DNA from: a virus | Reading direction: 5' to 3' (one strand) | Virus record (IMG/VR): IMGVR_UViG_3300030102_005935 | Coordinates: 1-53,001 of that record | DNA length: 53,001 nucleotides | In this document: piece after piece, positions 5,301-50,700 of the stretch | How positions within the stretch are numbered: position 1 is the first letter of the stretch | Layout: each line of letters opens with the position of its first letter | Position numbers and translations under genes: made by a program | Notes under the pieces: model-generated | Told to the model about the DNA's origin: nothing | What the model saw: the letters and a program-made list of their open reading frames with translations, nothing else | The model's database searches: none

Positions 5301-8300
5301 AATTAGTTGCTGCATCGTTCTTCATGAATAACGACGATTCAATTGATAAATTCCAAGAAATGCATCGTAAAAAGACGCTTATGGCTACAAGATTCAACGC
5401 TATTACTGACGCTATTGATTTCATGAAAGAGATAGCCGAAGGTCAATATGGTGGTAAAATCAAACCGGGTGCGTTGAAAAGTGAATCATTAAGACGCGCT
5501 CTTCTTAGTGAATTAGTTGGTGGGCCTATTGATGGTATTCAAAGAGCAGACAAAAGCATACTAAGAGCAAAAAGAAGCCTTGAATCATTAGACCCTATTT
5601 ACCGACAGTATTTAGCAGAACAAAAGGACTATGAGGAAAAATTAGCGCAAACCAAGATGCAGACATACATTGACGAAGATGGTAATGAGCGACAAGAACG
5701 CGGACAATATATGGAGCCATCACAAATCGCAATGATTGAAGAAATCGCTAAAAAGATTGACAAGAAGTATAGCAGTATGTTGTTAGACCGTAAAAACAAA
5801 CTTAGCACTATCAAGCGTAATGAAAACAAAAAGCAAAAACTACAAGATGCAAGCGAAGAATCTTTGTCGCGTGTTAACGAATTCATGCTTGGTGTTTTCA
5901 TCAAGGCCGGTGGTGACATTGCAAAGATTCTCAACAGCAAAAAACCAACAACGAGTATGGTATCCAAACTGTATGAACAGTTGTATGAAGACGATGACTT
6001 TGATTCAATACACCGCGCTGATACAGATGGCAACTTGAGCCGCGACTTTACTCATTCTTTGAGTAATTACAAATTGGGACGAATGGGTGAAATGGCTGGA
6101 ACAGGTATCATGGCTCATAACAACAACAAAGCATTGCCGCGTGTTAACAATATCAACCAACTACTTGCTCATCGTATCGCTATGGGCTTCCCCCTCAAAG
6201 AAGATGACATTGAGCGCGCTAAATCAATGATGTTTGATGCTGAGATGACTGATGCTGTTGATGATGAAGATGATGAAGAGTTTATGCGATTAGCGCGTGA
6301 AATGATGACCGAAGAAGAAATACAGAATCTATCGGAAAAGAAACATCATCATCATGACGACAGTGCTAACGAGTTGGGGTTAATCACAGAAGCAGAAGCA
6401 GCGCGAAGGGAGCAAAATTCACACTTTACAAGAGGTAGTGAAGAAGCCATTGAAAGAGGTGATATTAATGCGCAGTCGTTGATAAGTAATTGGCGACAAC
6501 ATGCACCAACATTATGCGGAACATGTCATGGACATAAGTTCGTTACTAAAGATGAAGCAATCTCATTCTTGCGTCATCGCATACCGGAACTGGAAGGTGT
6601 AGGAAGAGACAGTCCAAGAATGATGAAATACATATCACAAAACTTACGACCGCGAGGCACGCAAGATTTCGCAAGTCATGAAATGGCTGATGAAATGGAA
6701 GACCACGAACACGAACAATTCGCGTGTCCGGCATGTGAACACAGTGCTGATTATGTTCAAGGTGGTAAGTGTAGCAACGGTTTATGCCCCGATTGTTTAG
6801 GTAGTGGTGTCCGCGACCCATTAGATGATGAACACATACATGATGGTTACACAGACGCGGAAGGAAACAAAATAGATGGTAAAAACCATCACTATTCGCA
6901 TAACGGTGCAGTCGGCGCGAAGTTTGACCACCTTAACCAACTGCTATTACAGGGAGCAGAAATGATGCAAAGCGGTAAAATACCCGACTTTCTGCAAGAA
7001 GTCGTTAAACGCGCTTCACCAGTATGGCAGCAGTATGGTGATTATGTAGGGACAGGTAAATACAAAACAATTGAGGATAAAAGAAATGCAGCGCGAAAGA
7101 AAGAATTGGAACCGTTGGAGATTGACCCTAACGCGCCGGAGATACCCGGTCCACCAAGAGAAGAAAACGAAGAAACGGCAGATAACACAGATATGAATAT
7201 TGATTTCGGTCAAGAAAAACCAAAAGATAACACAGATATGAATATTGATTTCGGTCAAGAAAAAGAAGAGCCAAGAATTGACATACCGTTATACGGTGTG
7301 CAAAAGAAGGCTCTTGATTCTCATCACAAGATAATGCTTGAAAACAGAATTAATCAATTAGAAATGATTGGTGTAAAAACACAAGAAAACGCTGGTAATG
7401 CTGACGCAGTAAAGATGATAAAAGATTTAGCGGCAGAAATTAGAGCAGACCCCGCTTTCATCAGCGGTGAAGTTCATGGAAACGATATGCACCCGCTGGT
7501 TGATAAAATACACAAGTTGCAAGAATATGCAGAAGCGGCGTATGTTGCTTCCGAAATGGGCTTTGACGACAGAAGAAAAATACCGTATGATGAAAAAGGC
7601 AACATACTAACAAGCGTCAAGGACATATTTGCTGGTGATTCACCTTTGACATTTGCTGATTATGAACCGTTGACCCCTATGCATGGACACAACTTGACAT
7701 TAAGTGAAATAGCAGAAGGACTGTTTGAAGATGGTGCGACTCATTCACCAAGACCGATTGATGATAAAAGATTAGCAGACTTATTCCGCGGTAACAATAA
7801 AGCGATGGGTGTCATCAATCGTCGCCAGCAATACAACAAACTTGACAAAAATAAACTAAGCAAAATAGCCTCCGCGCTTGATGGAATTGACAAACCAATG
7901 GTTGCTCGTAAAACAACTAATTTGAGAAGCGACTCATTAGATGCTATATTGAAAGAATTTGGCGAAGAAGGTAAAGTCTCCGAGATGGATAAACCGCAGT
8001 TGACTTATAGTGATGAAACAATGAATGCGTTTAAGCAAGCAGGTGCTACAGATGTTAACGCATTAATTACTGCACCAAACGCTAACAAACAAAATCGCGC
8101 AATCAACGAAGGATACAATGTGAACTTGAATAGTTCAATCAAAGAGTTGTGGCAAGAGTATGTTCTAAAGACAGCAATGAGAACATTCATGACGCGCGTT
8201 AACAACCCTCTTGATTTCCCAAAGATACCCGAAAACATCACACCGTCAAACATGAAACAGTTAGTTGGTGAAGATGTTGGGTTGTTCAAATTGTTAAGAG

Positions 8301-18255: not shown

Positions 18256-19656
18256 GTGCAATCGTTATCACTTGAAGCAATTGAGGAAATTGACTTTGAG
18301 GTAGCGAAGCGTGATTTCAAATTCTTCTTTGAAGAAATACTTGGGTTTCAACTATCTTGGCATCACGAACAGTGGTTCAACAATCTTGAGTCGCGTAAAA
18401 GATACTGTGTAAAAGCGGCGCGTGACCACGGTAAATCAACGCTGTTCCTCGGCTACATGTTGTGGAAAACTGCATTCAATCCTAAAACCAAAGCAGTATT
18501 GATTTCACACAGTTTGCATCAGTCTATACACCACATGCGCACGCTCAATGATTTGATTGACAGTGTGCCGTTTCTTGCTAAGATGAAAAAGCCGGATTCG
18601 TGGTCAAAGACATTTTTTGGTTTTTCTAATGGTTCTAACATTAGCGCGAAGTCGGTTGGTGGTGCTATCCGTGGTATCCACCCCGACCTCATTCTATGCG
18701 ACGACATTCTGTGGGGAACAACCGACACAGAACTTGCTCGCGTTGCATCATGGTTTTACGAAGTCCTTGTCCCGACGCTCCACCACACCTCAAAACTAAT
18801 GATAGTCGGGACACCCTTTACTCCAACTGATTTATACACAGAACTTGAAAGTCGCGATGGGTATCTTGTTGAGACATATCCGGCTATCAATGTCAAAGGT
18901 GAAGCGTTATGGCCGGAGCGTTGGGATTTAGAATCATTAGATGCGCGCAGAAATGATATGCCAGCAATTGCATTTGCTCGCGAATACCTGTGTGAACCAA
19001 TGGACGATGTATCAAGTCTCTTCCCGTCAACTATTCTTCAAGCCGCTAAAGACTCATCATTGAAACTAATAGAGCGCGAGGTAGGCGACCCCGATGACCA
19101 ATACTTCATTGGTTGGGACCCTGCGATTTCATCGGACAGAAGTGCAGACTATACTGTAATGGTGGTGCTTCGTCGCCCATCAACTAACCCCGAAATGCTT
19201 GAGTTAGTTCACGCAATCCGTCGTAAGAACATGGACTTCCGCACACAGATTACTGAGATACAAAGACTCAACGCGAAGTTTAATCCCGATGTAATTGAAC
19301 TTGAGGCTAACAACTTCCAGCGTGTGTTTGCAACTGAACTTCGCGCTGATACAGATTTACCAATCAAGACCTTCATTTCCACACGCCAACGCCGTGAGTC
19401 GCTTCTCATGGGTTTGGTGTTGCGCTTTGAGAAAGAGCAAATCCGTTTGCCGTGGGGTGATGACCGTTCTCGCACGCTGATGTCCGAACTTGAGCGAGAG
19501 TTGCTTATGTTTGGTATGAGCAAGAAAGGTCGGCTTGACAGTATTGGTAGGCACGATGACTTTGCTATTGCTCTTGCGTTGGCGCATTGGGCGACCACGG
19601 AGTTCCGTGAGCGCATTGTGGACTTAGATGAAATAATGGCGGGGTTGTTAGATTGA
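18256..19656 (+). CDS. terL: Terminase large subunit (packaging ATPase-nuclease)
   Basis: The 466-aa length is typical. Residues 54-62 (A-A-R-D-H-G-K-S-T) are the Walker A loop, I83-S-H-S86 a strand and coupling position, and L145-I-L-C-D-D150 the Walker B aspartates. The C-terminal half has the RNase H-like nuclease signature: G-W-D-P-A-I-S near residue 289, an acidic strand V-I-E-L-E-A near 355, and G-R-H-D-D-F-A-I-A-L-A near 435. It drives DNA into proheads through the portal (22255) and cuts the concatemer. GTG 18256 follows TAGGTGAT by five bases. It has no intein and all key motifs are intact. Confidence 0.95.
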   Translation: MQSLSLEAIEEIDFEVAKRDFKFFFEEILGFQLSWHHEQWFNNLESRKRYCVKAARDHGKSTLFLGYMLWKTAFNPKTKAVLISHSLHQSIHHMRTLNDLIDSVPFLAKMKKPDSWSKTFFGFSNGSNISAKSVGGAIRGIHPDLILCDDILWGTTDTELARVASWFYEVLVPTLHHTSKLMIVGTPFTPTDLYTELESRDGYLVETYPAINVKGEALWPERWDLESLDARRNDMPAIAFAREYLCEPMDDVSSLFPSTILQAAKDSSLKLIEREVGDPDDQYFIGWDPAISSDRSADYTVMVVLRRPSTNPEMLELVHAIRRKNMDFRTQITEIQRLNAKFNPDVIELEANNFQRVFATELRADTDLPIKTFISTRQRRESLLMGLVLRFEKEQIRLPWGDDRSRTLMSELERELLMFGMSKKGRLDSIGRHDDFAIALALAHWATTEFRERIVDLDEIMAGLLD

Positions 19657-20734: not shown

Positions 20735-20877
20735 TGGATTGTTTCAAAGGCTGTTGTTATACAACCAATGATGGCTACCCGTTTGGGTATTGCCGAAAAT
20801 GTTGGTTGGCTAACGGCAGTCCTCAACCGGTCGGTGGAGGTTTTATTGACCCAATAGGTGGTGAAGATGAAAATTGA
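20734..20877 (+). CDS. Cys-rich microprotein, 47 aa
   Basis: ATG 20734 overlaps the last base of the previous stop, and the frame ends 11 bases inside the next gene. Five cysteines (C3, C7, C8, C20, C23) lie in the first half, followed by a Gly/Pro tail. GGTGG lies nine bases upstream. Position in a fully overlapping gene string and the Cys pattern support it; length alone does not. Confidence 0.5.
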   Translation: MDCFKGCCYTTNDGYPFGYCRKCWLANGSPQPVGGGFIDPIGGEDEN

Positions 20878-22258
20878 TTTAGCCGATGAAACGGCTTTTA
20901 TTGATATGATTTTGAAAAACACCATTCGTGGTGCTTCAATAGGCGATGGTCCACAACCAATTAATCAAGGACAAGGTGAAGTGAATGCAAATCCTGTGCC
21001 ACCTCCACCGAATGAAGTTGAAGAAGAAGAAGAGAAGAAAGAAATGGCTAAAGAAGTCGCGCAACAACTTAAGCGTTCATTACCCGACGGTGGTTGGTTT
21101 CAATCAATGTTCGGTCGCGGTGCTGGTGATTTAGTCAAAGATTTGAGAATGGCTCGTCGTGAACATAAGGATATGCGCGACGCTATTGATTACGCTATTG
21201 ATGCTATCCGTATTGCAAAAAAGCAAGAGGTTGAGGCTACCCTTCAATCAATTGAATGGATTGGCAAACATGAACAAACAGTTCGTAATCTCGGTATTAG
21301 TGAGCGCGATTTACAAGCATTGCGTAAGCATGGACACACACGCGAATATGCACTTCGTCGTGCTTGTGCGCAATGGGAGAAAGCCAACGACACTATCAGT
21401 AAATTATTGCTACTTGAAGGAGATTTCAATGATGAGCAAAGACAAATGTGGGTTGATGCTCAACAACTAAAGAAGAACTCAAAGAAAGAATGGCGTAACA
21501 CTTTACATTCAATTGATAACATCAAAAAAACAGATGCTATATTTTTAACAAAGGCCGCAAGAATACTTGAAGAGCGCGGTCCTTTACCCGCTAATGAAAT
21601 ATTTGCCAGTATGGAAAAAACAAAATCTTTGTCAACAAATCAATTAAGCGCGCTATTCAAAATGTATGGTGTTGATTACGATATTGAGAAGGTTGGTGCT
21701 GGTTGGGGTATAGTCCGCGATGAATCGGTAATTTTCAAAGATGTATGGGCTTACGCTGCTGGATTCCTTGATGCTGATGGATATATCACAATCACAAAGC
21801 GTCTTGAACCGAGGGCTGGTTTTATCGCTACCGGTGAAAGAGGTAAAATGCATTGCGAGCAATTACACAAGGCTCTTGGTTGCGGCGTTCTTCAAACAGA
21901 TTTGAAGATACATAAAAATAGCAGACGCACACAGCACAGACTTCAATTTTACAGTGAAGATGATTTGCGTAAATTGATGAAAGGGTTGCGACCACATCTC
22001 CGCATGAAGAAAGGTCAAGCGGGTGCTGTTCTTGAGTTGCTTGATTTGCGCGGTCGTAAAACAGACATAATCAAATCACGCCGCGATGAGTTGTATCGTA
22101 TAGTGAAATGGTTGAATTGGAAAGATGTTCCCGACAAGCGTGAAGAATTGCTTAAAGAGTGGAACATTGATGAAGCCGGACTTCATGCCATGTTTAATCG
22201 GGACGGCGAAACCCTCCGTCTTCTTGACGACGCTAACCGACTTGTGGAGATGATATGA
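20867..22258 (+). CDS. Protein with C-terminal LAGLIDADG-like domain, between terL and portal
   Basis: The 463-aa protein starts at ATG 20867 behind GGTGGTGAAG. Residues 30-65 are a Pro/Glu linker; 70-230 are helical with possible coiled coil. From about residue 295, W-A-Y-A-A-G-F-L-D-A-D-G-Y-I-T-I is a clear LAGLIDADG motif, followed by about 120 residues typical of one endonuclease domain (G-F-I-A-T-G-E-R, L-H-K-A-L-G-C-G, H-R-L-Q-F-Y). The acidic residue of the motif is present, so cleavage is possible, but a single domain must dimerise. It is not an intein: no splice-junction residues and the host protein is not a conserved gene. A domesticated role in packaging or gene control is an alternative. 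Confidence 0.75.
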   Translation: MKIDLADETAFIDMILKNTIRGASIGDGPQPINQGQGEVNANPVPPPPNEVEEEEEKKEMAKEVAQQLKRSLPDGGWFQSMFGRGAGDLVKDLRMARREHKDMRDAIDYAIDAIRIAKKQEVEATLQSIEWIGKHEQTVRNLGISERDLQALRKHGHTREYALRRACAQWEKANDTISKLLLLEGDFNDEQRQMWVDAQQLKKNSKKEWRNTLHSIDNIKKTDAIFLTKAARILEERGPLPANEIFASMEKTKSLSTNQLSALFKMYGVDYDIEKVGAGWGIVRDESVIFKDVWAYAAGFLDADGYITITKRLEPRAGFIATGERGKMHCEQLHKALGCGVLQTDLKIHKNSRRTQHRLQFYSEDDLRKLMKGLRPHLRMKKGQAGAVLELLDLRGRKTDIIKSRRDELYRIVKWLNWKDVPDKREELLKEWNIDEAGLHAMFNRDGETLRLLDDANRLVEMI

Positions 22259-24105
22259 TGGCAGAAGAAAAAGGACTGGTCGGGCGTTTTTTGTCAAGAT
22301 TGACAAAACCGTTCAACCGCCGAACAACACCCGAACCTATGATGCCCTTATGGAAGACGGGCATTCAAGAACCCGTTTTAGTTCAAGGTGTATCAATACC
22401 CGCCCTTTATGCGACAGTTCAAGAATCAATAATCTTGAGAACAACAATCAACACCTTATGTCAAGAAATATTCCGCCGTGGATATTATTGGGAGAAAAAG
22501 TTTCACAAGAAATGCACTAATTGTGATGAAGAATATCAACATGATACTGTTAATGAATGCCGTATTTGTGGTAATGAAGAGTTTGACAGCCCCGATGCTG
22601 ACCAAATACTATACCCGCGCTGGTTGTTAAAGCAACGCAACAGTATGGACCAATCATTTATTGAAGTGATGAAAGAGATTGAATGGGATTTAGATATTGT
22701 TGATGATGCGTTTTTGTTGCTCATCAAAGAATATTTCATTGACCCAAAGAGCGGTGAAATAGAATTCTTCCGCGTCAAAGAGTTGGTGCGCGGCGACCCT
22801 ACATTCATGAGAATAGTTGCTGATAAAGCAGGTAAGCGCGGAGGCAGATATTTACTGTGTCCTGTCCATCGTGATAAAACATATCCACATAACGGCGACC
22901 ACAGTAAATGTGAAGTCTGTTCTCTCCCTCTTCAAGATGTTCATTACATCAACACAGCCGGTAGCGGTAAAACGCAATATTACATTGACGGAGAAGTGTT
23001 GCATCTATCTAAATTCAATCCGTCTAAACTATACGGGCGTTCACCTGTTGCCAGTATGTGGAGACAAGCGCAATCACTTACTGCTATGGATAACTACATT
23101 TATCTTGCATATCAAAAGCGACGAATACCGCGTGGTGTTCTTGCTATTACTACTGATAACATTCAATCAACTGCATCATTTTGGAAAGGTGCAGAAGAAA
23201 AGATGGAGCGCGACCCACACTACATACCAAAGGTTGGTGTTGAATCTTCATCGGGTCGTGGTAAGGTTGAGTTTGTTCGTTTCATGGACAGCCTTGATGA
23301 GATGCAATACGCGCAAGTCCGTGATGAGATAAGAATGCGCATCGCGGCATTTTATGGTGTATCTAATGTTTTCATGATGGACGCTGGTAAGTCCGGTGGT
23401 TTGAACAACGAAGGTATGCAAATACTTGTAACAAACCGAGCGGTTGAATCCGGTCAAAAGTTATATTCACGCGAATTGTTCCCAAGAATGTTAGACCAAA
23501 TGGGAGTTGAAGATTGGTGTTTGACACTATATCCAAACGAAGAAGAAGATGAAATCACAAGACTCCGCCGCGATGAGCAAGAAGTCAACATTGCACAGCG
23601 TATGCAAGCACTTGGATTCCAACCGGAATTGACCGAAGATGCTGGTCGCGATATACGCTTCGTTTACAAGAAACCCGACCCACAAGAAGCCATGATGCAA
23701 CAACAGGCTGGCGGTGCGGGAGGAATGCCTATGCCACCGGGTGGTGGCGGAATGCCACCAATGGGTGGCGGTATGGCTCCACCTATGCCGCCGGGGGGCG
23801 GCTTACCTCCACAGGGTGGGGGTCCGATGATGCCACCGGGGGCAGGGGCTTCGCCACCGGGCGGGGGAGGACTCCCACCGGGCGGCGCGCCGATTATGAT
23901 GATGGAGAAAGCGATAGGTTTGGGTGAAAGCACTGGTCAACGCGACCGCGGACCTGCACCTATCAGTTCCGAAACTCATCAATCGGGCGCACCGTCAACA
24001 AAAAAGAACCAACGCGGAGCAAAAAAGACACCGTTGGAACAAGCACTTGATAGCGTTCAAGCCGCGAAAGACCCTACTTCAAAGCAAAAAGATAGTGGAT
24101 TTTGA
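22255..24105 (+). CDS. Portal protein with two zinc-ribbon insertions
   Basis: The 616-aa protein lies where the portal is expected. Recognisable portal parts are the helical region from about residue 125 (D-Q-S-F-I-E-V-M-K-E), the strand E-V-L-H-L-S-K-F-N-P and the stem-like N-Y-I-Y-L-A-Y-Q-K-R-R-I-P-R-G-V near 280. Two Cys clusters are inserted: C87/C90/C102/C105 and C202/H205/C219/C222, each a plausible zinc ribbon. Residues 475-550 are Gly/Pro/Met repeats, presumably flexible. The dodecameric portal would form the DNA channel, docking TerL and the connectors. The start is within the previous stop; ATG 22258 is also possible. Confidence 0.85.
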   Translation: MMAEEKGLVGRFLSRLTKPFNRRTTPEPMMPLWKTGIQEPVLVQGVSIPALYATVQESIILRTTINTLCQEIFRRGYYWEKKFHKKCTNCDEEYQHDTVNECRICGNEEFDSPDADQILYPRWLLKQRNSMDQSFIEVMKEIEWDLDIVDDAFLLLIKEYFIDPKSGEIEFFRVKELVRGDPTFMRIVADKAGKRGGRYLLCPVHRDKTYPHNGDHSKCEVCSLPLQDVHYINTAGSGKTQYYIDGEVLHLSKFNPSKLYGRSPVASMWRQAQSLTAMDNYIYLAYQKRRIPRGVLAITTDNIQSTASFWKGAEEKMERDPHYIPKVGVESSSGRGKVEFVRFMDSLDEMQYAQVRDEIRMRIAAFYGVSNVFMMDAGKSGGLNNEGMQILVTNRAVESGQKLYSRELFPRMLDQMGVEDWCLTLYPNEEEDEITRLRRDEQEVNIAQRMQALGFQPELTEDAGRDIRFVYKKPDPQEAMMQQQAGGAGGMPMPPGGGGMPPMGGGMAPPMPPGGGLPPQGGGPMMPPGAGASPPGGGGLPPGGAPIMMMEKAIGLGESTGQRDRGPAPISSETHQSGAPSTKKNQRGAKKTPLEQALDSVQAAKDPTSKQKDSGF

Positions 24106-25203: not shown

Positions 25204-28200
25204 GTGCGCGAAGATGCTTTACAATACCATCAGCGCATGGTGAATCAGTTTGCACAAGCAATCATCAACAAACAAGATGCTCGCGATGAAGCGGTCAATC
25301 TTCTGTTAAGTGCAAACAACTTAGAGAACAATGGATACGCGTATCCTATATTCAAGGAGCAAGCAGAAGACTTCCTCAAACCTTTGTTGGAAATCAAAAA
25401 CCCCTCCGATAAAGGTATGGAGAGGATATTTTCATCAAAGACTACGCGACATGAACCCACACCTACTCGTCATCACAAAGCGAGAGGGTTGTTTCATAGC
25501 GACGATTGGGTTAAAGCAATGATGGAAGGCAACGAAAATGCAATTGATATGATGGTTAGGTTGTTTGCTGGTAGGAGATTCAAAGACACTATACCCGACA
25601 TCGCTGGTCGTGGAGTTGACGGTGTTGTTGGTAAACATTCTAAACTTAAAGCACTCAACCTTCACCCGCCGCGTAAAGGTGAAGTTGCTTTTGGTGAAAA
25701 ATCATTATGGCAACACTTGAGTAAATTCTTGTATGGTAATGGTGGTGCAAACGCTGAACGGTTAAACGATGCGATGGTTAAGGTCGCTAACAATATGAAT
25801 CCGATTCTCAAACAACCTCATTTATTTAGCAATTGGAGAGGCAACAACGCTACCATAATGAAAATGTATCAGCGCGGAAAAGATGATTTTATCAAAGCCT
25901 TCGGAGAAAGGTTCGGTAAAAATCACCCCTTGTTGTCTTCTAAAATGCTTGATGAATATTATCTAAGACAAAAAAATTGGGAGAACGAAGGCATACCACG
26001 CGAAGAAATTTTTGATGTTCTCTATGAAGAAAATGGAAACCCTGCAAGTAAAAGCAAGAAAAGTGATAAATCCCCTGTTGACCTTTTACGCGAATTAGCA
26101 GACACATACAATGACACAAGGAGAAGACCAAAAGAAGGAGAGGCTAACTTTGGTCGCGTTGGTGATGACGCGTATCGTCTTGGTATAGCGATGTTGCCTT
26201 ATGATGACATTTATCGTATCAAACGATGGATGTTAGAAACCAGCGGTGGTATGAAAGATGACGGCACAGTTGGTAATGATAAGGTCATCAACGAGATACT
26301 TGGACCCGACGCGAGAGGATATATGGCTCATCATGCTTTTATGATTGACAACATGCTTCACACCTTACATGCTGGTGGTGCAGAAAGAAACGGAATGAGT
26401 CATGTATTGCCTAACAGATTCTTGAACAAAACCAAAGAAGAAGTGATGCGTGATATAGATGCGCGACATGAAGAAATTAGAAGGAGATTAAAAGAAGGGC
26501 GATGGGGAACTCTCGGTGATGACGCTTTACAAGATGCATTACAAGGTGTTGATTTCAGCCCAAAGGTGGCAGAATTTGTAAAGAATAGAGATGATGTTAT
26601 AGTGGTTGATGATGATGATAACCCAATATACCCGCATATTGACCACAGTGACTATGGAACATTTGTGTATATGAATTCGGACTTACCCGACATTAGGAAG
26701 TTAAGTGCTTTTGGTTTTTTCAACCAAGAAGAGTTAGATGATTTAATTGAGCGCAGCGTTGTTTCTTACGGGTCAAAAGAATATACTGATTTACTTCGTC
26801 AATCAATCGCTGATTATACTCACACCCATAATATTGAAGATGAATTTGATATGTTGGAAGAGCCGACTATATATCAATCACCGCTTGGTATTTTGATGGA
26901 AGGTGTTGGTAGTAGGAGAGGTAATGCTAACGGCGAATGGGGTGATTTGGGTAATTCTTATGACGAATCAATGCCTAATATGATTCGCGTTAATTTACCA
27001 ACAATAGCGTTTATGATGCCGTCAAGAGGCGAAAGAAGCGGTAGCGGTAGTCAAAAAACTGTTGAACAACAAGACGAGTTTGACCCAAAGAAAGAAACTG
27101 ATGGTCAACTAAGACGAGACTTAGAAGAGGCTTTGCAAAGATACGGTGTTGAAGATGAAGAGAAATACTTGGATATGTTTGACAACGGTAAAGTGGTAAG
27201 TCTTGATGTTCCGCGCAAAGAGATGACTACTCAAGATGTAGCGGAGGGTATAATCAATCCTTATACAGCGGAGAATTACCCCGACTCGCTACCATCTCCG
27301 CTTGGTCAAATAGAACAATATGTGGAGGGTATGCCAACACCTATGTCAATTGCAACTAAAGGGTTGCATTCGTTTTACATGGCTCACAGCAACAACTTCG
27401 GTTTGGGTATGGCGGACTTTAATGGTTTTTTCAGTCTTGACGGTAAGCCCCTAAGAAGCACAGAAACAGCATTGAAAACACCAATGTATTCAACGCGCAA
27501 AGAGCGAGTCAACTCTCAATCAAAAGGTGGAAGAAGTTTATTTGATAGACATCAAATGTCCGGCGACCGTAAAGGTAGCGAAGCGCGACAACTTGGTATA
27601 ACAAAGAATAACCATTCTAATGAGGACAAATTGCTGATAGACGCGTTTTTACTTGGTATGCATCATCCTCTCCATCAACACGATGATGATTCATTTGAGT
27701 TATTCAACGCGCTAATGAACGCGAAAGAAGGAGAAAGAATGGACATTATCAAAAAGAACACACACAAAGACATTATAGGTAGCGGTGGCAGAACTGGTCA
27801 AGATATGTTGAGAGAGTTATTACAAGATGTCACCGAACCATCTCATCATGCAATTTACCACAAAGAAGACTATGATGACCACATGGTTAAGTTGATGAAT
27901 TTCAACGAGCCATACGAATTACCGGAAGCACAAATTAAGGGTATTAAATCGCGCGGAAGACTAATTCAATCAATCAAAGAACTTGACCAACAATATCGTC
28001 GCGCTTTTGAAGAAGGTGATGAAGAAAAGAAGAATGAGTTGCATAAACAGATTGAAACGATGCTGAATGATAAAGACAACATAGTAGGTTATCGTGAACA
28101 TGAAGATGGATTATCCGCGCTTGTCGTCGGTCCAACCCCTTCTTATCTTGCTTCTCAACATTATGCTATGCTTGAGAGCGCGCTACAAAAAGCGCGCAAT

Positions 28201-31158
28201 ACAGGAAACGAAGATGCTCAAGAAATGATTGAAAAAAGAATGATGGAAGTAAGAAGACAATCTCCGCCTTACGATGGTGGAGAGATAAAACTAAACAACC
28301 ATGAAGCGCGCTTGCAAAACCATGTCAACACTTTACTTGCCAAAGAAAAAATATTCAAAGTGTTACGACCAGCGATTGAAAAAATTTACCCCGATGTATA
28401 TACCGGTGATGTTCGTAAAGCAACAGCGGCTACCGCCTACACACTCAAACTGGCAGAACAAATTGCTATGCTATCTCCCGACGAAAGGAAGAAATTGTTT
28501 GGTGGTAAAGACAACATTCGTATAGGTGGTAAATCGGCTTCATTTGATTTATCCGAAGATGAGGTTGAAGAATTAGCGAATTTGAATGTTAAGCGTAAAA
28601 CCCATCTTGATTCATCATTTGTTGAAGGGAGCAAAATGGTTGACAACACTTTTGGTGGTGTTCAACCAAAAGGGTATAGAGTTCTTTCACATCTCGCGAA
28701 AGACTCAAACAACATTGACGAAGATGAGATAAAAATATTTGACCAACTAATCAGCAGTGTCAAGCAAGCCGCGAAAGAACAAGAGATTAGTTTCCAACAA
28801 GCGTTCGCTGCTCGTTATTATCCAACAAACTCAAACGGAATACCACTGAAAGGACAAGACCGAAGTTTTGCTTTTGACGCTTTAGAAGGCATGAAGCGAA
28901 GAGTAGGCGGTATGGGCTTCAATGAAGGAGGATTGTTCCGCGGTAGTCCGATATTTAGGCATGGCGGTGAGTCAATCCTTGATAAGAAAAACAAACCAGT
29001 TAGTATGAATAAAGAGCGCGAAATCATTTTCAAGATGTTATACAATGGTTTCTCTCAAACAAGAGAAGGTAGCGATGCAGCGTTAGATTTCAAGGGAATG
29101 TCATTCTTCAAGGGCTATGATGTAAAAAGAGCCAAAAAAGTGATGGATTTCAATAAACTTGACTCTCTTGATAACATCTCTTCACTGCTTGATAGTGTGA
29201 CGAAAACGCGCATATTTGACCAATCATCTCATGAAGATGTGGATACAAACATGGGTGGTTATGATTTCAAGAATGCTCCTGTCGTTCCTATCGCTACAAG
29301 CGCAGATAAAAAATTCCACGGTGGTATAGGAACCCCTGTTCCATTTATTGCAAGACCCGATTCATTGAATCAAGGTATGTTGTATCTTGAAGATGAAAAC
29401 GAGCATGTTTACAATCCTCCACCAGCACAACAACTTGTTACATTGAGTAACATGATAAGACGCGTCAATCCAACTTTACCACCTTTACCACCTTCTAAGC
29501 CCGGTGATAAGTATTATCCAAACTACGCCGGTTTTGATAACGAGCCGAATCCTAACATTCGTATGGGTCAAGCGGCTAATCAAGCGATGTTTACTGGAAC
29601 AGAAGCCTTGCAGTCCACAGACGATTCGTTAAGAACATACTCATCACATTTACTTGATGTCGCGTTAGATGATACACTTATCATAAAAGAAGATGGTAAA
29701 CCACAACCCATCAAATTTATGCATCGCATATTTGAGTTGGGAGACTTAGAGCATTTGCGCGGCTTCGTAGGTGATTGGGTTATCAGTCTATATCCGCAAG
29801 GTGAACACATCATCGCGACAAAAAAAGGAGATAAGATTACTGCTTATGGTGCTGATGGTGAAGTAAAGTTAGACGATGTGTTTAACGAAGAAGCAAGCAA
29901 AGTGTATGAAAAAGACTTCGTGGTTCATGCTATATTACACGATGGAGTAATGACCGTTATTGATTTGCTAAAGACTGCCGATGAAGATACACACAACATG
30001 CCAACCAAAGACCGCATTCGTCATCTTCGCGCTCAATACGAATCAAGCGAACACATCAAGATGCCCGAACCTATCAACACTAAGCGTAGCGATGATGAGG
30101 GATTGCAAGTCGCTATTGATGGTTTGAGAAATGAAAACAATATGGACATATTGCTCCGTGATGCTAACGCTACTTACATGAAAGGTGAGCCAAGACACCC
30201 TAAGTGGGTGTTGTTGAGTAAAGAAAAGATGGTTGATGTCGTCATTCTTTCCCGCAATGGTAAATCATACACAATAGGTGTAGGGCCATTGATGCACCCC
30301 GAAAACTACGGTAAGCGCGCACAACAAGTTGGTGAAGAACACTACATGAATGTTGGAAGCGCGAAAGGTCCGCGTGGATTGAAAGTCGGAGACTTTGCTA
30401 CTGTTCGTTGCACAGGTGTAAGTTCGTCAAATGGTGAACATACTACCTACCGTGTTCGTTCAGCCAAGATAACCGATGACGAACCGCTTGCCGCTGACAG
30501 TGTTGAGACTCTTGCAGTGATGTCCGGCGACCATCATATTCCTCAACAAGTCAATATGAAGAAAGGTAAAATCACTATTTTATTCCCTGCGTTTGATGAT
30601 GAAGTTATTTGTAAAACGCGCAAAGAAGAGGGTTATTGGTATGTTGAGCCGGAATCATCTCTATGGGGCAACGATTATCTTGTTGAGTTGGCACGCGACC
30701 AAGAAGCATACTGGATTGCAAAAGCCGCTTGGCTTTTGATGAAGGAAGAAGAAGAAGGCGTTGAACAACCCGAATACGACGAGGTAACACCCGAACCACC
30801 AGCGGGTCATAGCAAGAAAAGAAAGCATGTGTTGGAAGACGAAGAAGAAGTCATCAAGCATGGGTTAGAGTTGATAGAGCGCGGGTTGGAACATCTTAGT
30901 AAAGAGAAGATTACCAGCACAGGAGTTCAAGGATTAGGTATGGATTATGCAACCTATGATGAATCCCCGCGAGGCCCAACTGAGAATATACGCGACAACA
31001 CTATGCCCGATTTTGACCCTCAAGCACGACGAGATGATGAATTAAAACCAGCAACAGGCAAGAAAAAGAGTAAACTGCGAACCAGTCAAGGTGAAGTTGC
31101 GCGTCTTGAAGACGATGGGGTTCTCGCGATTGAGAACAGTTCCATTGATATACCATGA
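25204..31158 (+). CDS. Giant 1984-aa head-module protein with a degenerate DNA-ligase-like region near its C-terminus
   Basis: GTG 25204 follows GAGGTGATGAA. The first ~1450 residues are charged helical sequence without a recognisable enzyme. From about residue 1500 the pattern follows the adenylation and OB domains of ATP-dependent DNA ligases: G1520-F-V-G-D-W1525 where ligases have K-x-D-G-x-R, then a T-K-K-G-D-K-I-T-A-Y-G hairpin, D1648-I-L-L-R-D1653 at motif IV, W1668-V-L-L-S-K at motif V, and an OB-like stretch to about 1790 (G-L-K-V-G-D-F-A-T-V-R-C-T-G-V). The nucleophilic lysine is absent and motifs IV and V are altered, so catalysis is unlikely. The tail (1835-1984) is acidic and has A-A-W1843-L-L-M-K. 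It lies between portal and protease, so a virion-internal or DNA-binding role is likely. Confidence 0.75.
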   Translation: MREDALQYHQRMVNQFAQAIINKQDARDEAVNLLLSANNLENNGYAYPIFKEQAEDFLKPLLEIKNPSDKGMERIFSSKTTRHEPTPTRHHKARGLFHSDDWVKAMMEGNENAIDMMVRLFAGRRFKDTIPDIAGRGVDGVVGKHSKLKALNLHPPRKGEVAFGEKSLWQHLSKFLYGNGGANAERLNDAMVKVANNMNPILKQPHLFSNWRGNNATIMKMYQRGKDDFIKAFGERFGKNHPLLSSKMLDEYYLRQKNWENEGIPREEIFDVLYEENGNPASKSKKSDKSPVDLLRELADTYNDTRRRPKEGEANFGRVGDDAYRLGIAMLPYDDIYRIKRWMLETSGGMKDDGTVGNDKVINEILGPDARGYMAHHAFMIDNMLHTLHAGGAERNGMSHVLPNRFLNKTKEEVMRDIDARHEEIRRRLKEGRWGTLGDDALQDALQGVDFSPKVAEFVKNRDDVIVVDDDDNPIYPHIDHSDYGTFVYMNSDLPDIRKLSAFGFFNQEELDDLIERSVVSYGSKEYTDLLRQSIADYTHTHNIEDEFDMLEEPTIYQSPLGILMEGVGSRRGNANGEWGDLGNSYDESMPNMIRVNLPTIAFMMPSRGERSGSGSQKTVEQQDEFDPKKETDGQLRRDLEEALQRYGVEDEEKYLDMFDNGKVVSLDVPRKEMTTQDVAEGIINPYTAENYPDSLPSPLGQIEQYVEGMPTPMSIATKGLHSFYMAHSNNFGLGMADFNGFFSLDGKPLRSTETALKTPMYSTRKERVNSQSKGGRSLFDRHQMSGDRKGSEARQLGITKNNHSNEDKLLIDAFLLGMHHPLHQHDDDSFELFNALMNAKEGERMDIIKKNTHKDIIGSGGRTGQDMLRELLQDVTEPSHHAIYHKEDYDDHMVKLMNFNEPYELPEAQIKGIKSRGRLIQSIKELDQQYRRAFEEGDEEKKNELHKQIETMLNDKDNIVGYREHEDGLSALVVGPTPSYLASQHYAMLESALQKARNTGNEDAQEMIEKRMMEVRRQSPPYDGGEIKLNNHEARLQNHVNTLLAKEKIFKVLRPAIEKIYPDVYTGDVRKATAATAYTLKLAEQIAMLSPDERKKLFGGKDNIRIGGKSASFDLSEDEVEELANLNVKRKTHLDSSFVEGSKMVDNTFGGVQPKGYRVLSHLAKDSNNIDEDEIKIFDQLISSVKQAAKEQEISFQQAFAARYYPTNSNGIPLKGQDRSFAFDALEGMKRRVGGMGFNEGGLFRGSPIFRHGGESILDKKNKPVSMNKEREIIFKMLYNGFSQTREGSDAALDFKGMSFFKGYDVKRAKKVMDFNKLDSLDNISSLLDSVTKTRIFDQSSHEDVDTNMGGYDFKNAPVVPIATSADKKFHGGIGTPVPFIARPDSLNQGMLYLEDENEHVYNPPPAQQLVTLSNMIRRVNPTLPPLPPSKPGDKYYPNYAGFDNEPNPNIRMGQAANQAMFTGTEALQSTDDSLRTYSSHLLDVALDDTLIIKEDGKPQPIKFMHRIFELGDLEHLRGFVGDWVISLYPQGEHIIATKKGDKITAYGADGEVKLDDVFNEEASKVYEKDFVVHAILHDGVMTVIDLLKTADEDTHNMPTKDRIRHLRAQYESSEHIKMPEPINTKRSDDEGLQVAIDGLRNENNMDILLRDANATYMKGEPRHPKWVLLSKEKMVDVVILSRNGKSYTIGVGPLMHPENYGKRAQQVGEEHYMNVGSAKGPRGLKVGDFATVRCTGVSSSNGEHTTYRVRSAKITDDEPLAADSVETLAVMSGDHHIPQQVNMKKGKITILFPAFDDEVICKTRKEEGYWYVEPESSLWGNDYLVELARDQEAYWIAKAAWLLMKEEEEGVEQPEYDEVTPEPPAGHSKKRKHVLEDEEEVIKHGLELIERGLEHLSKEKITSTGVQGLGMDYATYDESPRGPTENIRDNTMPDFDPQARRDDELKPATGKKKSKLRTSQGEVARLEDDGVLAIENSSIDIP

Positions 31159-32648
31159 ATAAAAATTCGGAAGCAATGGCGATTCTCGCGGCTCCGAGTT
31201 CTTCCTCCAATCCCGTCATTTTGAAGGGTATTGGTGATGACCTTGTTGTTGCTGGGTATGCGTCTGTTGAAATGGTTGACAAGCAAGGCGACCTCATTAC
31301 TCGCGGTGCTTTGAAAGATGCGTTTGGCAAATTCATGAAAGCCGACGGGTTCCGCAATGTGCAACTTGCACACTCCAACATTCAAGTAGGAAGTGTCATT
31401 CCTTCCTACACTGATTCCTCCGGTCGTCTTTGGAAATCCGAAGTTGACGACACCGGTATGTTCGTAGTTATCAAACTACGAGGCGACATTGAGAAGGCAC
31501 GCGAAGTGGCTTCCGAAATCCGTAAAGGGAACTTGCGTTCGTTCTCTATCGGTGGTCAAGCATTTGAGCGCGTTAACAAGAGCGACCAAACTCGCGGAGA
31601 CTACCGCGAAATCCGTCGCATGGAACTCCATGAGGTTACGATTTGTGAAAAAGGTATTAACCCGGAAGCACAATTTCGTATCCTCAAGGAAGACACAGGT
31701 GATAATATGAGCAATACGATGAGCGAATTACAAAGTGTCCTTGAACGATTGTCAAAGAAACTTGACGATAAGGACGATGAAGACAAAGAAAATGCAATGA
31801 TGGGTGAAGACCCAAAAATGCATGACAAGAAAGACAAAGAATCCAAAGACAAAGGCATTGAGGACCTTCTTGATGCTCCCGACAAAAAAGACGAGGACGA
31901 TGACGGCAACATGAAGGAGACTCTTCGTGAAGCGCGTGAAGACAAGAAGGACAAAAAACCAGCAATGGACGATGACGATGACGAGGATGACGAAAACGAA
32001 GATATGATGTATGGTGATGACATGACAGCAAAAGCAGATGATATGATAACGAGCGACTACTTGATTTGGTTAGAGCAAACAGCAAAGAGCGCGGGCTTTG
32101 ACCCGTCTGCTGCTCGCGACCATTTCAACAAAGGATACGGACCGGGTGAAACCTCATTTGATATGAGAGGACAGGGTTCCCTTGAAGGTGCAGGTGAAGA
32201 CGACTCCGGTAAAAGGCCACAACCAAACTTTGGTTCTGCGCCTACCGGAAACAAGAATGTGATTAAGGGAGACTACCTAAACTCACAGAATGTTTCACCT
32301 TCCGAGATTGAAGCGGCTTACGAAGTTTACAAGGCCGCAGCAATGGAGCAACAATTCAAGGCAGACTTGAACAACAACTTCACTCAAAGGTTCCTAAAAG
32401 AACAGAAGGCAGAAGCAGACGCAATTGCAAAGCAAGAATTTGATGCTCGCGCACCAATGGTTGAGTTGCAAAAGGCTGTCCTTGCGCTAAATGAGCGTAT
32501 TGACAATGTTTCTTCCGGTAGTTCAATGATTGCAAAGTCCGCTAACAGCGCGACTGTAACTATTCCCGAAACTGCTGACTTGGCAAACATGTCGTGGGAC
32601 GATGTTCACCGACTTGCCGACAAAGCATTGAACGGAGGTGTTAACTGA
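31155..32648 (+). CDS. Prohead protease fused to a scaffold-like C-terminal region
   Basis: The 497-aa protein has an N-terminal HK97-type (U35/S78) serine protease: V-A-G-Y-A-S-V at 32-38, L-A-H73-S-N with the likely catalytic His, and R-S-F-S131-I-G-G with the likely nucleophile, then E-L-H-E-V-T-I-C-E-K-G-I-N near 160-172. It should mature the prohead by cutting capsid or scaffold segments. Residues 190-300 are strongly acidic with Asp/Lys runs, and 380-497 are helical; this fits a built-in scaffolding domain, explaining the lack of a separate scaffold gene. The C-terminus carries M479-S-W-D-D-V-H. ATGA overlap with the giant gene upstream; one-base overlap with the capsid gene downstream. 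Confidence 0.9.
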   Translation: MNKNSEAMAILAAPSSSSNPVILKGIGDDLVVAGYASVEMVDKQGDLITRGALKDAFGKFMKADGFRNVQLAHSNIQVGSVIPSYTDSSGRLWKSEVDDTGMFVVIKLRGDIEKAREVASEIRKGNLRSFSIGGQAFERVNKSDQTRGDYREIRRMELHEVTICEKGINPEAQFRILKEDTGDNMSNTMSELQSVLERLSKKLDDKDDEDKENAMMGEDPKMHDKKDKESKDKGIEDLLDAPDKKDEDDDGNMKETLREAREDKKDKKPAMDDDDDEDDENEDMMYGDDMTAKADDMITSDYLIWLEQTAKSAGFDPSAARDHFNKGYGPGETSFDMRGQGSLEGAGEDDSGKRPQPNFGSAPTGNKNVIKGDYLNSQNVSPSEIEAAYEVYKAAAMEQQFKADLNNNFTQRFLKEQKAEADAIAKQEFDARAPMVELQKAVLALNERIDNVSSGSSMIAKSANSATVTIPETADLANMSWDDVHRLADKALNGGVN

Positions 32649-33796
32649 TGGCAAGAAATTATGTAAGAACAGTTCAAGATATGGAGCGATACTATTACGG
32701 TGGGGCTTCTCAAACCGGATACACATACGGAAGCGGAGACATTCTAAAGGCAGACGCGCCTCTTCTCTCCACAACCGCTGGAACATACCAAGCAATCTAT
32801 GGTCGTAAAGTATGGTCGCAATTGAACCAAGAGTTCAACGCGTTCTCTATACTACCAAAGAAGCCGTGGGAGCGAAGTGGTTGGAGAATTCTAACTGGTC
32901 GCGCTGACTTCACAAAGGGTGGCGGAATTGCAGAAAACGGAACACTACCGGACACAAGCAGACCCGAATTCCTACATGTAGCAGCAAAGCCAAAAACCAT
33001 CGCGCACACTTTTGACCTATCCGAAGTGAGCATGTTCCTTTCCGATAAGGACGATGGATTGGGCGATGTCCGACAAGTCTTGAAAGAAGAAATGGGTAAG
33101 CACCACGCTGAACACATTAACAGAATGCTTCTTGAAGATGTTGACACACCAGTTGGAAACGACTTTGAATCTCTTGACAGATTAACTTCCGACCCGGACA
33201 AGATGACAACAGGAACAGGCCATGTAAGCGCAACCACTGACCACGACATTTACTCCATTGCTCGCGACGGAAGTGCAGACTTCCACAGCGCGGAAGTTGA
33301 TGTTTCAACAAGTTCAAGCACTAACAGAAACCTATCTCTAAACATTCTTGATGGGTTGTTCCAGCAACTATGGACCCGTGGTGGTAATCCAAAGGTTATG
33401 CTAACTGGATATGACACTCTAATGAGAGTTCAACAGTTGCTACAATCCCAACAAAGGTTCATGGACAGCAAGAGAGTTACCCCAACCTACAACGGTGTAA
33501 AGGGTGTTCCGGGTCTTGAGGCTGGTTTCATTGTGGCTACCTACAACGGTGTCCCAATTATCCCAACCAAAGATATGCCACAAGATGGTGCAGGTTCACT
33601 ATCTCGTATGTATTACCTTGACACAGACTACCTATGGTTCCAAACTGCTATACCAACACAGTATTATGAGTCCGGTATTGAAACCGGCGACCCATTCGCG
33701 ATTAACAGACTCGGCCAAGAAGGTCTTTACAGAACAATGGGAGAATTGTGGTGTTCTTTCTTCGGTGCAAGTGGTTCAATCCGCGACTTACAATGA
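32648..33796 (+). CDS. Major capsid protein, HK97 fold
   Basis: Directly after the protease, 382 aa is a usual length. A Tyr/Gly-rich N-terminus (R-Y-Y-Y-G-G-A) is followed by an E-loop-like region, a long helix (V-L-K-E-E-M-G-K-H-H-A-E-H-I-N-R-M-L near 145-165), and the A-domain pattern with P-K-V-M-L-T-G-Y, P-G-L-E-A-G-F-I-V-A-T-Y-N-G-V-P-I-I-P and L-D-T-D-Y-L-W-F-Q. Strong codon regularity and a good ribosome site support high expression. It forms the icosahedral shell. The N-terminal extension is short, so the scaffold is probably the protease C-terminus. Confidence 0.9.
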   Translation: MARNYVRTVQDMERYYYGGASQTGYTYGSGDILKADAPLLSTTAGTYQAIYGRKVWSQLNQEFNAFSILPKKPWERSGWRILTGRADFTKGGGIAENGTLPDTSRPEFLHVAAKPKTIAHTFDLSEVSMFLSDKDDGLGDVRQVLKEEMGKHHAEHINRMLLEDVDTPVGNDFESLDRLTSDPDKMTTGTGHVSATTDHDIYSIARDGSADFHSAEVDVSTSSSTNRNLSLNILDGLFQQLWTRGGNPKVMLTGYDTLMRVQQLLQSQQRFMDSKRVTPTYNGVKGVPGLEAGFIVATYNGVPIIPTKDMPQDGAGSLSRMYYLDTDYLWFQTAIPTQYYESGIETGDPFAINRLGQEGLYRTMGELWCSFFGASGSIRDLQ

Positions 33797-44722: not shown

Positions 44723-47700
44723 ATGGCAGTTATTACTCTATCAAACCATGCGATGTTTTTCAATGGCGTAAGCGACAGTATAGTTTGCCCTCAAGGTGAT
44801 TTTACTAAAACCGGTCATAAGCGCGAATTATACGGTGGTGTTGCACGCTCTTCTGCTCCTGTTTTACAAGACGGTGATGGACATAGATTTGCTAACGCTA
44901 ACAATCAAACGCTGGACAAGTTTACAGTTGAGGCTTGGGTATCACCGGACTGCGGTGGTGTGATAGCAAGCAAAGCAGGTTTGTTTGAACTGAGTATGGG
45001 AACGGTAAACGCACCGGGTGTAGCATCATTCAAAGTTGAATTCACCAATGGTGTAACAGCAATTGCTTCAAGCGCAAATAATTACCCAACAGCCGCCGCT
45101 TCATTCATTAGCAACAATGTAGGATACAATGTAGGACAGCGCGAGTTGTATCATATTTCCGGTGAGTTCAATGGTGAGCAAGTAAAGTTGTATGTCAATG
45201 GAGAATTAATGGCTTCACATAAAATGAATAAGAAATACAAATGCAGTCTTAATGACCAAGATTTATTCATTGGCGGTAAAGGTGGTGAGTATCGTGGATA
45301 CATTGAATCATTGCATTGGAAAAGCGATGTATCAACTATGGAAAGTCGCGCTAAACCGCTTATGAAAGTTAACAGCACTATTGGTCTTTGGCGATTTGAA
45401 GAGCCGGTTGAAGTTGACGATGATGAATTTTACATCACATCAAATGTCAATGCGGGGGATACTACAATCACAATAGGTGCAACAGCCTGTCAAAAAATGT
45501 ATGAGTTAGTAAGTGGTAAATCCGACCCATTACTTACCACTTACACCCTTGAAAGTCTTGGTAATTATCAAGTAGCGAACCCAACACATTCGCTGGGTGC
45601 GCGAGTTATTAGCGTGGCTCATACACCATTCAATCTTATTATCAATCCAACGGCGACAGATACACTTACTGGACTACCAAACAATTCAGCACCGGAGCGT
45701 GTTCGTCTAAAACAAATCAGTCCTCTCGGAGCAATCACTGTTGAAAGCATACATCTTGACTTTAGCGTTTCAACTGACACAGGCGCGCGTGGCGTTTTAC
45801 ATTCACGCACAGCGTTTGATACAAGTAATAATTTTGCTAACGATTCAATGATGGTTCTTGTTCGGTCGGATTTACTTATTGACAGCGAAACCGGTAAGCC
45901 GTATCAGCGACTTGGAACAAGCAGTCAAGCCATAGATAGAACAGGAGCGATGGTTATAGATGAAAGCCCTAATGAGTTTCACGGATTTATCTATTCGCGC
46001 TCTCTTGCTGTTGGTAATACTTTTTCACCTGCTTCTTGGTCTATCGCGGAGAGGTTCAAAACAGGTCATACAGGTAGGCATAAACACACACAAAAAGAAG
46101 GACACTCATTCCTTCGTCTGCTACCACCAATACATGAACAAGAGTTGACAAGAACAATTGATGGTATATCCGATGATGCGCTAATCACCTTTGCTGGTAG
46201 TTATGTTGGACTCAAAGATGCTATACCTATCAACAGCAAAGCCGCTGTATCTCATACAGCGACAAACGCGCGTATCATGGAATTAAGAACATCGGCTACA
46301 ACTAACGGCGTTGTTCGCAATGGTCTGTATGGTATAGACAATAACCGCGACGGCGTTATTGCAATATCAGTTGATGACATAGAACCGTTCTTGTTGAAGG
46401 GTGGAGGTATAGGTGTTGATTCACAATCGGATAGTCAATACAAAAAACATCTTACACCCGAAAAAGATTCGCGAATTGCTATCCTTGAAGTGTCGGGTTT
46501 GACCGCTGGTTATGTTGAGGTTCACTATAACGCAGTTGACCTTACAGGAGAAAAAATGGGATTATCAAACCCGGCACTTCTTGTCACAAAAACAGTTCCC
46601 GACGGCGGTTGTTTTCTTAATACAAAACGCGTAGCCGAACACATCGCTGATGCCGTTGCTGCTGGCGCAACAATACATTCACCCGGTGGTGTCATCACTG
46701 CCTCTTCAAACGATATAGGAACCGCGCAAGTTGCGCTAAAGCCTCATCATCTTGTTGGTGATAACGCAGGTGGGTTTGATTATGAAAAGGATTTGAATGA
46801 GTCTTTGCTACCAGCAAACTACACTCCAAGATTTACAGGCGAAGAAGGTAATGCACCACCTCAAGGTGTTGCTACTACAACGCACCCGTCTGCTTATCAC
46901 AAGATACACATACAACCAATGCAAAGAAGCGCAAGCGACCCACCAGTAAATGAAGCACCCACGCACTACCAAGAGAGCGTTCAATTCGCTTCACAAAAAG
47001 GTGGAGCATTTGAGATGTTTGATATTATTGACAACGATAAAGTTGGTGATTCATACATATTCATTGTTCAACCAAGCAAGCGCGAAAGAACAATGCAGTT
47101 ATCGCGCGCTACACCAGCAACAGTTGATTTTAACGATTGCACATACTTTACTATTGAATATGTCCAATCAACAGTAAGAATATCCTCTATGGAGGTAAAT
47201 GATTCGGGTATGGGTCGTTATCTCATTATGGAAGGTCAAGGTATTATGACCGATGTATCCGACCAAACAGTATCATACGCGGGAGATGGTAGTCGTGATT
47301 CACACATCGTAAAAGAAATACAACCCGGCGCGCCTGTTGTTTCTGTTACTCTTGGTGGTCCCGGTCAAGGTGCTGTTAACACTAAACCGAGTTGGGACCC
47401 TGCAACATTATCGCGAGTAGGTTGGAATACACGACACGCTTGCGCTGTCGCAGTAAATGATTTTGATGGAGCAGCGGGAACAATAACAGTTCAACCCTTA
47501 AACAACAAAGGCCGTTTAGCAAATTGGGGAACATATTGTTTTCCAGCAACAGGGCGTATTTATTTATCAAATGGCGCGAATGCTGAATATGACTCTAAAA
47601 CATCAACTACATTTACATTTACGGGAGGTGCAGATAAATACATACTCGCTAATGGGAGGCGCGCTACGGATTTTGCTGATTGGGTAACATCAACTGGATT

Positions 47701-50700
47701 TTCTGTTGAATCACTAATCTTGCTTGACCCACAATTTGACACATCAAGTGTTTGTAGCGACGGCACAACCGTTAACGATAGATTGTTTCAATCAATTAGT
47801 TCAGTTCAGCATGATTATCAGTTAGGTTCTCAATATGCAAGCACTCGCGCGCTTGTTGAAATTCCACTTTTCCCTCAACAATTTTTTGAAGACCGCGACG
47901 CTGGTGTGTTCCCCGGACCGGACAACAGCATGAAGTTGCACCTTGATGCTACAATGACAGCGCAAGCATGGAATCCTTCTCCTGTTGGTCGTCGCGCACC
48001 AAACTACCCAGCGACAGATTACGAAGCGTTTGGTCATTATCAATATGCATCAGCAAACAATTTACCAATACGAAGTCAAATTATTGATATAAACAGGTTT
48101 GCCGCTAATACTATTGTTCTTGACACAAACCATATTGCTGATTCTAAATTTGATGACTTTGCTACCGTAAAAGGAGTTAGCACAAGAATGACACGAAAAA
48201 TTATTCTCGGTAATGGTGAATGGGCTTACTACGAAAAAAGCGGAGTCGGCGTATGCACAGTGACGCTGAGTGATTTAGAAAGTCATTCAAGTAAAGATTT
48301 CTTTTCATCTCTATCAATAGGCGCGCAAGTATTAGTTGGTGTATTACCTAATCAAGTAAACTTTCCACTCACAGGAGATATAAACTATCAAACCACTGGA
48401 CAAGAATACCGTCGTCCGTTTTACTATGACCGCGGTAGTGTAATGACACAAGGTGGTAATCTTGATTATGGTTTACGCCAATATGTTAGCGCGGTTGAAT
48501 TCAAGGCCGGACCTACTGCTAACCCACATTTAGCGCGCATACAATCAAAAAACGCAGTTATTGAATTAGTCCTTCCACTAATCCCACCTCTCTATACTGG
48601 CCCCGGTGTAAAATTTGGTATCAAGGGTAACTTACCTAAAGGAAAATTACCAACCAGTTATGAGTTTGCTGCCATAAATGAAGCAACCGGTCATAAGTAT
48701 AGAATTACTTACAACTCCACAATTGAGCCAAATTTCATAGCAATTCAAGCACACCCAATACTTGACCCAACAGCACCAACAGGTCTTCTCGCTACTGGTG
48801 ATGAACTTGTCTTGTTGGGTGTGTATTCAATTGACCCAAATACTGCTCCTTTGATGTTACCCGATAGTATAGCAAACTCCACATGGAATAATCCTTATTG
48901 TCCCGGCGGATTGCGATACGGTGATACGATTTGGGCTAACATGCATTACACTAACCCCCATGCAATAGAAGGTTTATTTGCTAAATCTCGCGGTGTCTAT
49001 AACGAATATGAGGTATGGCGTGGTTTCAATGGCGGCAAAGGCGAATTGGGAATTGAATCACGCGATACTCTTCCGCTTGAAAATTTCCTTATTGGCGATA
49101 CTTGTATTGAAACTGCTCGCAACTATGTTCAACATGTAAACAAAACCATTGAGTTGAATTGGATTGAATTAGGTCATGATGTATCCACACATAAACCACC
49201 AATTGTAGCATATCTTGACCCATATCTAAGCACTGAAACACATGCGCGTGTTTTACTTTACGATGTAGCGCATGACCGTGAATTTATCGCGTTCCATGAC
49301 CTTCACATGCAAGTGCAAACAAATGCAACAACTCCGACTATCAACGAACTTGATGTAGCGGCTGGATTTAGAACTCAAAGAAAAGATAAACACTTGGCGA
49401 CAAAACCGTATAACGAAGTAATAGATGGTGTAACATACGAATACGAAGATGGAACGGGTAAATCGCACTTTATTGAAGGGGCATACGCGCACCGTAGTTG
49501 GTATTTGATGGATAATAGTTTTATGACACCAAACCCTGCTGGTGTAGTTAATCTCGCGCATAACCGAAAAGCAAGAAACACTCCGCATTACATCAAGTTT
49601 GGTGATGAAACAACTCAATTTGGTCAAGGCAGAACTGCTCAATCAACTGTTGATATTGACAAAGCATCGCTAAGACACGCTGAAACTATCCCTTATCAAC
49701 AATCCGAAGATGTGCAATCGGGTAATACTTTTGCTCCGGTATTTACATCAACATTCTTTGATACACCCGAAGGAACGCGTGTTATATCAGCGTTCCTTTG
49801 CTTAAAAGGAAAACGCGCTTCAGTTAATGATACAAGAAATCACTACGAAGACAGATTACAACACCTACCACATTGGACTGATATGGACTTTGTAAGACGA
49901 TTGACTATTGATATGGGCGAAGTAGGGTTGCGCGAAGGTGTAACAGACATTGAAGCCGCTGCGCGAGAAGTTGTTAGACTTATTAATCAAGCAGGTGCGC
50001 TTAATGGGCGAAGCAGTCAACGCAGACCTTCCGACCAATATCCGGGTGAAGGTGAAAGATTTGACATTAACAGACGCGCTGTATCAGTAGGTGGCACAGA
50101 TACAGATAGACCAACAGATGCAACAGCGGCACACCATCATGCTGATTTTTCAGTGACAGGTTCAACTCACGACCCTGCTCCGTTTTGGGCTGATAACGCG
50201 TTTACTTCTTTTAACCGAGGTTCACACATGGGTTATCTTCGCGCTCATTTAGGTCGCGTTGTTGAAGATGCTAACGGTAATGAAGGGTTTAGCGTTGTAA
50301 TTCACAGCACAGTTCCGGGTGCAACAAGTCGCAATTTCTGTGTATGGCTTGATAATAGCAAAGGTCAAGCAGAATATAAACCACAATATCTTATTGGTCA
50401 CGGTGGAAGATTCCGTAATTTCTATTGCGCTCCACCCGAAGTAGCGGGGGAAAACATGCACCCTGCACCTATGCCAATTGATAAAAACGGTAAACCGTTT
50501 GCACCAATTACAACTTTGCGAGAGTATGTTGCATTAGATGAAGCAAGTGATGAGTTCTTTACAAACTTACATCTTGGTTTTGCAGCAAACTTCAACACAA
50601 CTATTGAGGGTGAAGAAACTCCAAACACAGGAGCAACCACTGGTCGGTCGTCAAACACTGGCTCTATGGAGTCTTTTGAAAATGGAGGTCAAAAATATTC

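Follow-up and report, generated by a model that had tools for sequence, protein, structure and literature searches.

Magroviruses have been reported as encoding DNA ligase almost universally (PMC10160649, PMC12999244), and in group A magroviruses the gene annotated as an ATP-dependent DNA ligase adjoins the gene for a phage prohead protease (PMC7318539). We analyzed a 53-kb virus record (53,001 nucleotides; this whole stretch is referred to here as the window) that contains a terminase, a portal, an S78 prohead protease, an SU10-type capsid protein, and a very large open reading frame between portal and protease (Table 1). The C-terminal 370 residues of the encoded 1984-aa protein include a ligase core consisting of a nucleotidyltransferase domain and an OB fold. 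The initial annotation, made from the sequence alone, had placed a catalytically dead ligase-like domain at positions 29700 to 30600 of a head-module protein; the open reading frame was confirmed, with residues 1500 to 1799 falling at positions 29701 to 30600. Other giant open reading frames lie at positions 2390 to 9019 (2209 aa, no Pfam match) and 44723 to 52999 (>2758 aa). A 466-aa open reading frame with an HNH-endonuclease match lies between terminase and portal (positions 20858 to 22258), and the terminase of the haloarchaeal virus HVTV-1 is also flanked by HNH genes.

Table 1. Coordinates of the head cassette genes, and of the domains and motifs of the 1984-aa protein, in the window
Feature	Position	Strand	Basis or remark
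Terminase large subunit	18256..19656	+	
Portal protein, upstream neighbor	22255..24105	+	
1984-aa protein, between portal and prohead protease	25204..31158, stop included	+	GTG start; ORF list, synteny
N-terminal part, residues 1-1498	25204..29697	+	Conservation, dN/dS, family search
Predicted dead nucleotidyltransferase domain, about residues 1500-1672	29701..30219	+	Pfam, NCBIfam, AlphaFold model, Foldseek
Degenerate motif I, Y1530-P-Q-G1533-E-H1535 (ligase K-x-D-G-x-R)	29791..29808	+	hhalign, YDGKR-bearing relatives
Degenerate motif III, H1575-A-I1577 (ligase D-G-E)	29926..29934	+	Glu in 0/152 relatives
Degenerate motif IV, M1647-D-I-L-L-R1652-D1653 (ligase E-G-x-x-x-K)	30142..30162	+	Lys to Arg in 150/152
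Degenerate motif V, R-H-P-K1667-W1668-V-L1670-L-S1672 (ligase W-x-K-x-K)	30193..30219	+	W kept, first Lys lost in 152/152
Predicted OB fold, about residues 1673-1765	30220..30498	+	AlphaFold model; Foldseek alignment spans OB
Small C-terminal alpha/beta domain, about residues 1766-1850	30499..30753	+	AlphaFold model, alignments
Conserved tail with GLGxDYA...SPxGPT motif	30754..31155	+	Conservation, motif search
Prohead serine protease S78	31155..32648	+	4-base overlap with stop of the 1984-aa ORF
Major capsid protein	32648..33796	+	

Relatives of the protein were collected from IMG/VR, with 469 in the final scan. The window fragment alone matched the Pfam model DNA_ligase_A_M with an E value of 0.14, and the same model was matched by 18 of 25 diverse homologues (best E value, 2.2e-7). 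Two relatives scored above the curated cutoff (27.6 and 26.6 bits versus 26.2), each score being the sum of adjoining in-frame pieces. NCBIfam ATP-ligase models were matched by 41 of 47 homologues and by the window domain itself at 5e-4. Profile-profile comparison by hhalign with archaeal (Thermoplasmatota) ligases gave an E value of 3.7e-6 once the archaeal alignment had been trimmed; untrimmed, it gave only a 39-column local match. The AlphaFold model of the ligase-like region had a mean pLDDT of 90.1 when built from an alignment of 47 diverse homologues, which raised the score from 52.7 with 23 close homologues. When this model was compared with the PDB by Foldseek, all 50 matches listed were DNA ligases (best E value, 2.4e-13, for Thermococcus sibiricus 4eq5), and the alignments covered both the nucleotidyltransferase and the OB fold. 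The TM-scores were moderate (0.3 to 0.5) and the rmsd was large, which may reflect a different orientation of the domains. Judged by profiles and the predicted structure, the C terminus is an ATP-dependent DNA ligase fold, with the nucleotidyltransferase-plus-OB order that the initial annotation had proposed.

The residues at the catalytic positions were counted over 152 distinct relatives. The register of motif I was fixed by hhalign together with relatives that bear KWYDGKR in the hairpin, whose appearance led us to reject a first register on GFxGDW. The nucleophile position is Y1530, about 10 residues from positions 1520 to 1521, where it had been sought initially. At this position the relatives have W (55), Y (46), M (23), F (8), I (8), K (7), or L (5), so that lysine is missing from 145 of the 152. 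The seven lysine-bearing relatives lack the OB fold and the remaining catalytic residues, and in 38 relatives a lysine lies just before the nucleophile position. These observations suggest that decay was stepwise or, alternatively, that weak activity is possible in some lineages. The E-G of motif IV is replaced by variable residues (M1647-D1648 in the window), and the first lysine of motif V corresponds to L1670. The absence of the adenylated lysine and of the motif IV glutamate had been recognized from the outset, as had the I-L-L-R-D of motif IV and the A-T-Y-M-K-G that precedes W1668 of motif V, and these readings were correct. The entry segment, P-[IV]-K-x-M-H-R-I-F, aligns with P-[IV]-K-x-M-L-A of archaeal ligases. 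New invariants of the family are G1520, W1525, R1604, R1609, G1633, D1653, M1659, K1667, and W1668. From these residues the ligase domain is predicted to be dead. An active ligase serving viral replication, as published annotations imply, would agree with the ATP-dependent DNA ligase reported for magroviruses (PMC10160649, PMC12999244), but with the nucleophile, the motif III glutamate, and the motif V lysine missing, and with the gene in a head cassette rather than a replication module, this is barely credible. It is also very unlikely that the domain is still an enzyme, its pocket retooled for another reaction through the conserved R1652, D1653, H1665, K1667, and W1668. Such a change would fit the region of motifs IV and V, where polar residues are invariant among the 152 sequences; however, the residues of known covalent nucleotidyltransferases have been lost together, and we found no recognizable alternative catalytic motif.

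The ligase-like block is the most conserved stretch of the 1984-aa protein. Among close relatives, 79 to 93% of residues are conserved per 50-residue bin, versus about 50% for the N terminus. For the nucleotidyltransferase, dN was about 0.05 to 0.12 and dS exceeded 1.4 or was saturated, while dN for the fast-evolving N-terminal part was 0.30 to 0.82. These values indicate that the dead ligase block is under strong purifying selection, which argues that it is functional. The N terminus ranges in length from about 660 to >2000 residues among the relatives, and it showed no convincing family match in Pfam, A4 members included. The OB fold is absent in at least two lineages (L088 and L092-L104/L195), in which the nucleotidyltransferase and the small C-terminal domain are kept, and the GLGxDYA...SPxGPT tail occurs in nearly all relatives. 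This tail motif was considered as a shared protease site and rejected, the motif not being found in other window proteins. In the L149-L174 lineages the tail is interrupted by an inserted Cys knuckle (CWCGAEKGEECKQGMGH-like), and the L007 homologue (positions 3534 to 9887 of L007) has, following its C-terminal domain, about 122 extra residues that include clusters of His and Cys.

The gene holds a fixed place in the portal-protease-capsid cassette. Among the relatives, the prohead protease is the next gene in all 97 distinct loci with downstream sequence, and 48 of 52 loci have the portal upstream, which bears out the initial assignment of the protein to a head or packaging module. From gene order only, we infer a putative head or virion protein. 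There is a good probability that an archaeal-type ATP-dependent ligase core lost its adenylation chemistry in the ancestor of these viruses and was retained as a noncatalytic binding module of a head-morphogenesis protein. The dead ligase, the small C-terminal domain, and the tail, which together form the conserved block at the C terminus, would serve as an anchor. They would dock the protein to part of the head, such as the portal, the protease, or the lining of the capsid, or place it inside the procapsid, and the fast-evolving N terminus would do lineage-specific work. We favor this docking role because the nucleotidyltransferase, C-terminal domain, and tail are shared across lineages, whereas the OB fold is dispensable and the N terminus diverges.

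The initial annotation had further proposed that the pseudo-ligase grips DNA. The fold, the catalytic loss, and the head cassette context invoked for this stand; the gripping itself is weakened. A nick- or end-binding clamp, in which the dead ligase would hold DNA unsealed at the portal vertex while the genome is packaged or ejected, would suit a ligase fold with OB, a gene lying between portal and protease and downstream of the terminase, and the near invariance of the basic or polar residues R1652, H1665, and K1667 in the old pocket region. However, ligases grip DNA through the OB fold and the DNA-binding domain. Since the OB fold has been lost in two lineages and no Pfam ligase N-terminal (DNA-binding) domain was detected in the 14 N-terminal regions scanned, the gripping of DNA ends loses weight and is less likely than a docking role. 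The loss of the motif V first lysine and the motif III glutamate in all 152 relatives also speaks against the clamp. The net charge is slightly acidic, although real ligases are similar, and as a sign of DNA binding net charge was uninformative, discriminating in neither direction. We regard the clamp as doubtful.

The relatives also point to the identity of the viruses. The window portal is approximately 30% identical to portals of haloarchaeal tailed viruses, and PolB was present in 9 of 13 kin records searched (records up to 118 kb), though not in the window itself. Among 84,980 species genomes there was one match to the protein, on contig 2 of AG-422-I20, a single-cell genome of Poseidoniales, where the gene order is the same, ahead of protease and capsid. 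Taken together, the halovirus-like portal, PolB in kin records, and the Poseidoniales single-cell relative are a pointer to magroviruses, and on these grounds the viruses look like magroviruses with Poseidoniales hosts. The L195 head cassette lies on a 106-kb contig from a single-cell genome of Poseidoniales and gives a direct host link for an OB-less lineage. No relatives of the 1984-aa protein were detected among INPHARED phages.

Of 25 Poseidoniales genomes sampled (G028-G052), 24 encode an NAD-dependent ligase and none an ATP-dependent ligase. A recent host origin of the dead domain is therefore unlikely. An ejected effector, packaged and injected, would have its dead ligase work inside the host cell, for instance by protecting the ends of viral DNA or by competing with the NAD-dependent ligase. 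Hosts with an NAD-dependent ligase only would accord with this, as would a giant head-cassette protein with a fast-evolving N terminus. However, there was no sign of injection, and arms-race effectors are usually less conserved than this C-terminal block, so we consider this improbable.

The dead domain bears on the published annotations. In kin records of 78 to 118 kb, which are possibly partial genomes, PF01068 matched the dead domain only or nothing, and RNA-ligase and NAD-ligase models gave no match. PolB-bearing records of as much as 118 kb yielded no further ligase, and so the dead domain is probably what was published as the magrovirus ligase next to the prohead protease, an equation made by gene neighbor. 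The two have the protease neighbor in common and, by inference, the virus group; they differ in that the published gene is annotated as a replication enzyme, whereas here the catalytic residues are gone and the context is morphogenesis. This suggests a revision of the view that magroviruses bring a ligase of their own for replication, and the viruses may instead depend on the NAD-dependent ligase of the host. We consider it fairly likely that a dead DNA ligase took on a structural or DNA-handling role in head assembly, universal within a common group of tailed ocean archaeal viruses, and that the replication-ligase annotation is wrong. Pseudoenzymes are already known, but a dead ligase as a fixed part of the head cassette is apparently new; a limited literature search found no such case for a viral head cassette. 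The role of a giant, invariably placed head gene thus becomes a testable target.

Several known systems resemble parts of this locus. The haloarchaeal Druskaviridae (HVTV-1, HCTV-1, and HCTV-5) share the homologous portal, followed by a giant protein. In HVTV-1 the portal is followed by a 1048-aa HExxH-like protein, a head-assembly protein, and a 1313-aa protein annotated as a zeta toxin, and no counterpart with a ligase-like domain was seen. The first of these, gp113 (L105:10724-13870), is annotated as hypothetical, and its HExxH-like HEMGH suggests a metallopeptidase. A capping-enzyme/ligase-type nucleotidyltransferase fold has been kept as a binding module in the m3G-cap-binding domain of Snurportin-1, and weak Snurportin-1 Pfam matches were obtained for 5 of 25 homologues (best, 0.0033). 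Snurportin-1 differs in being a eukaryotic RNA-cap import adaptor without an OB fold, and ligases are the closer match to the virus domain. The best structural matches, among the matches listed, were the archaeal ligases of Thermococcus sibiricus (4eq5) and Pyrococcus furiosus (2cfm). With archaeal ATP-dependent ligases the virus domain shares the nucleotidyltransferase and OB fold, the P-[IV]-K-x-M entry segment, the motif IIIa D and helix, and the motif V W. It differs from them in lacking the nucleophile lysine, the motif III glutamate, the first lysine of motif V, and a detected N-terminal DNA-binding domain, and, unlike those enzymes, it is joined to some 1500 residues of unrelated sequence and encoded within a head cassette.
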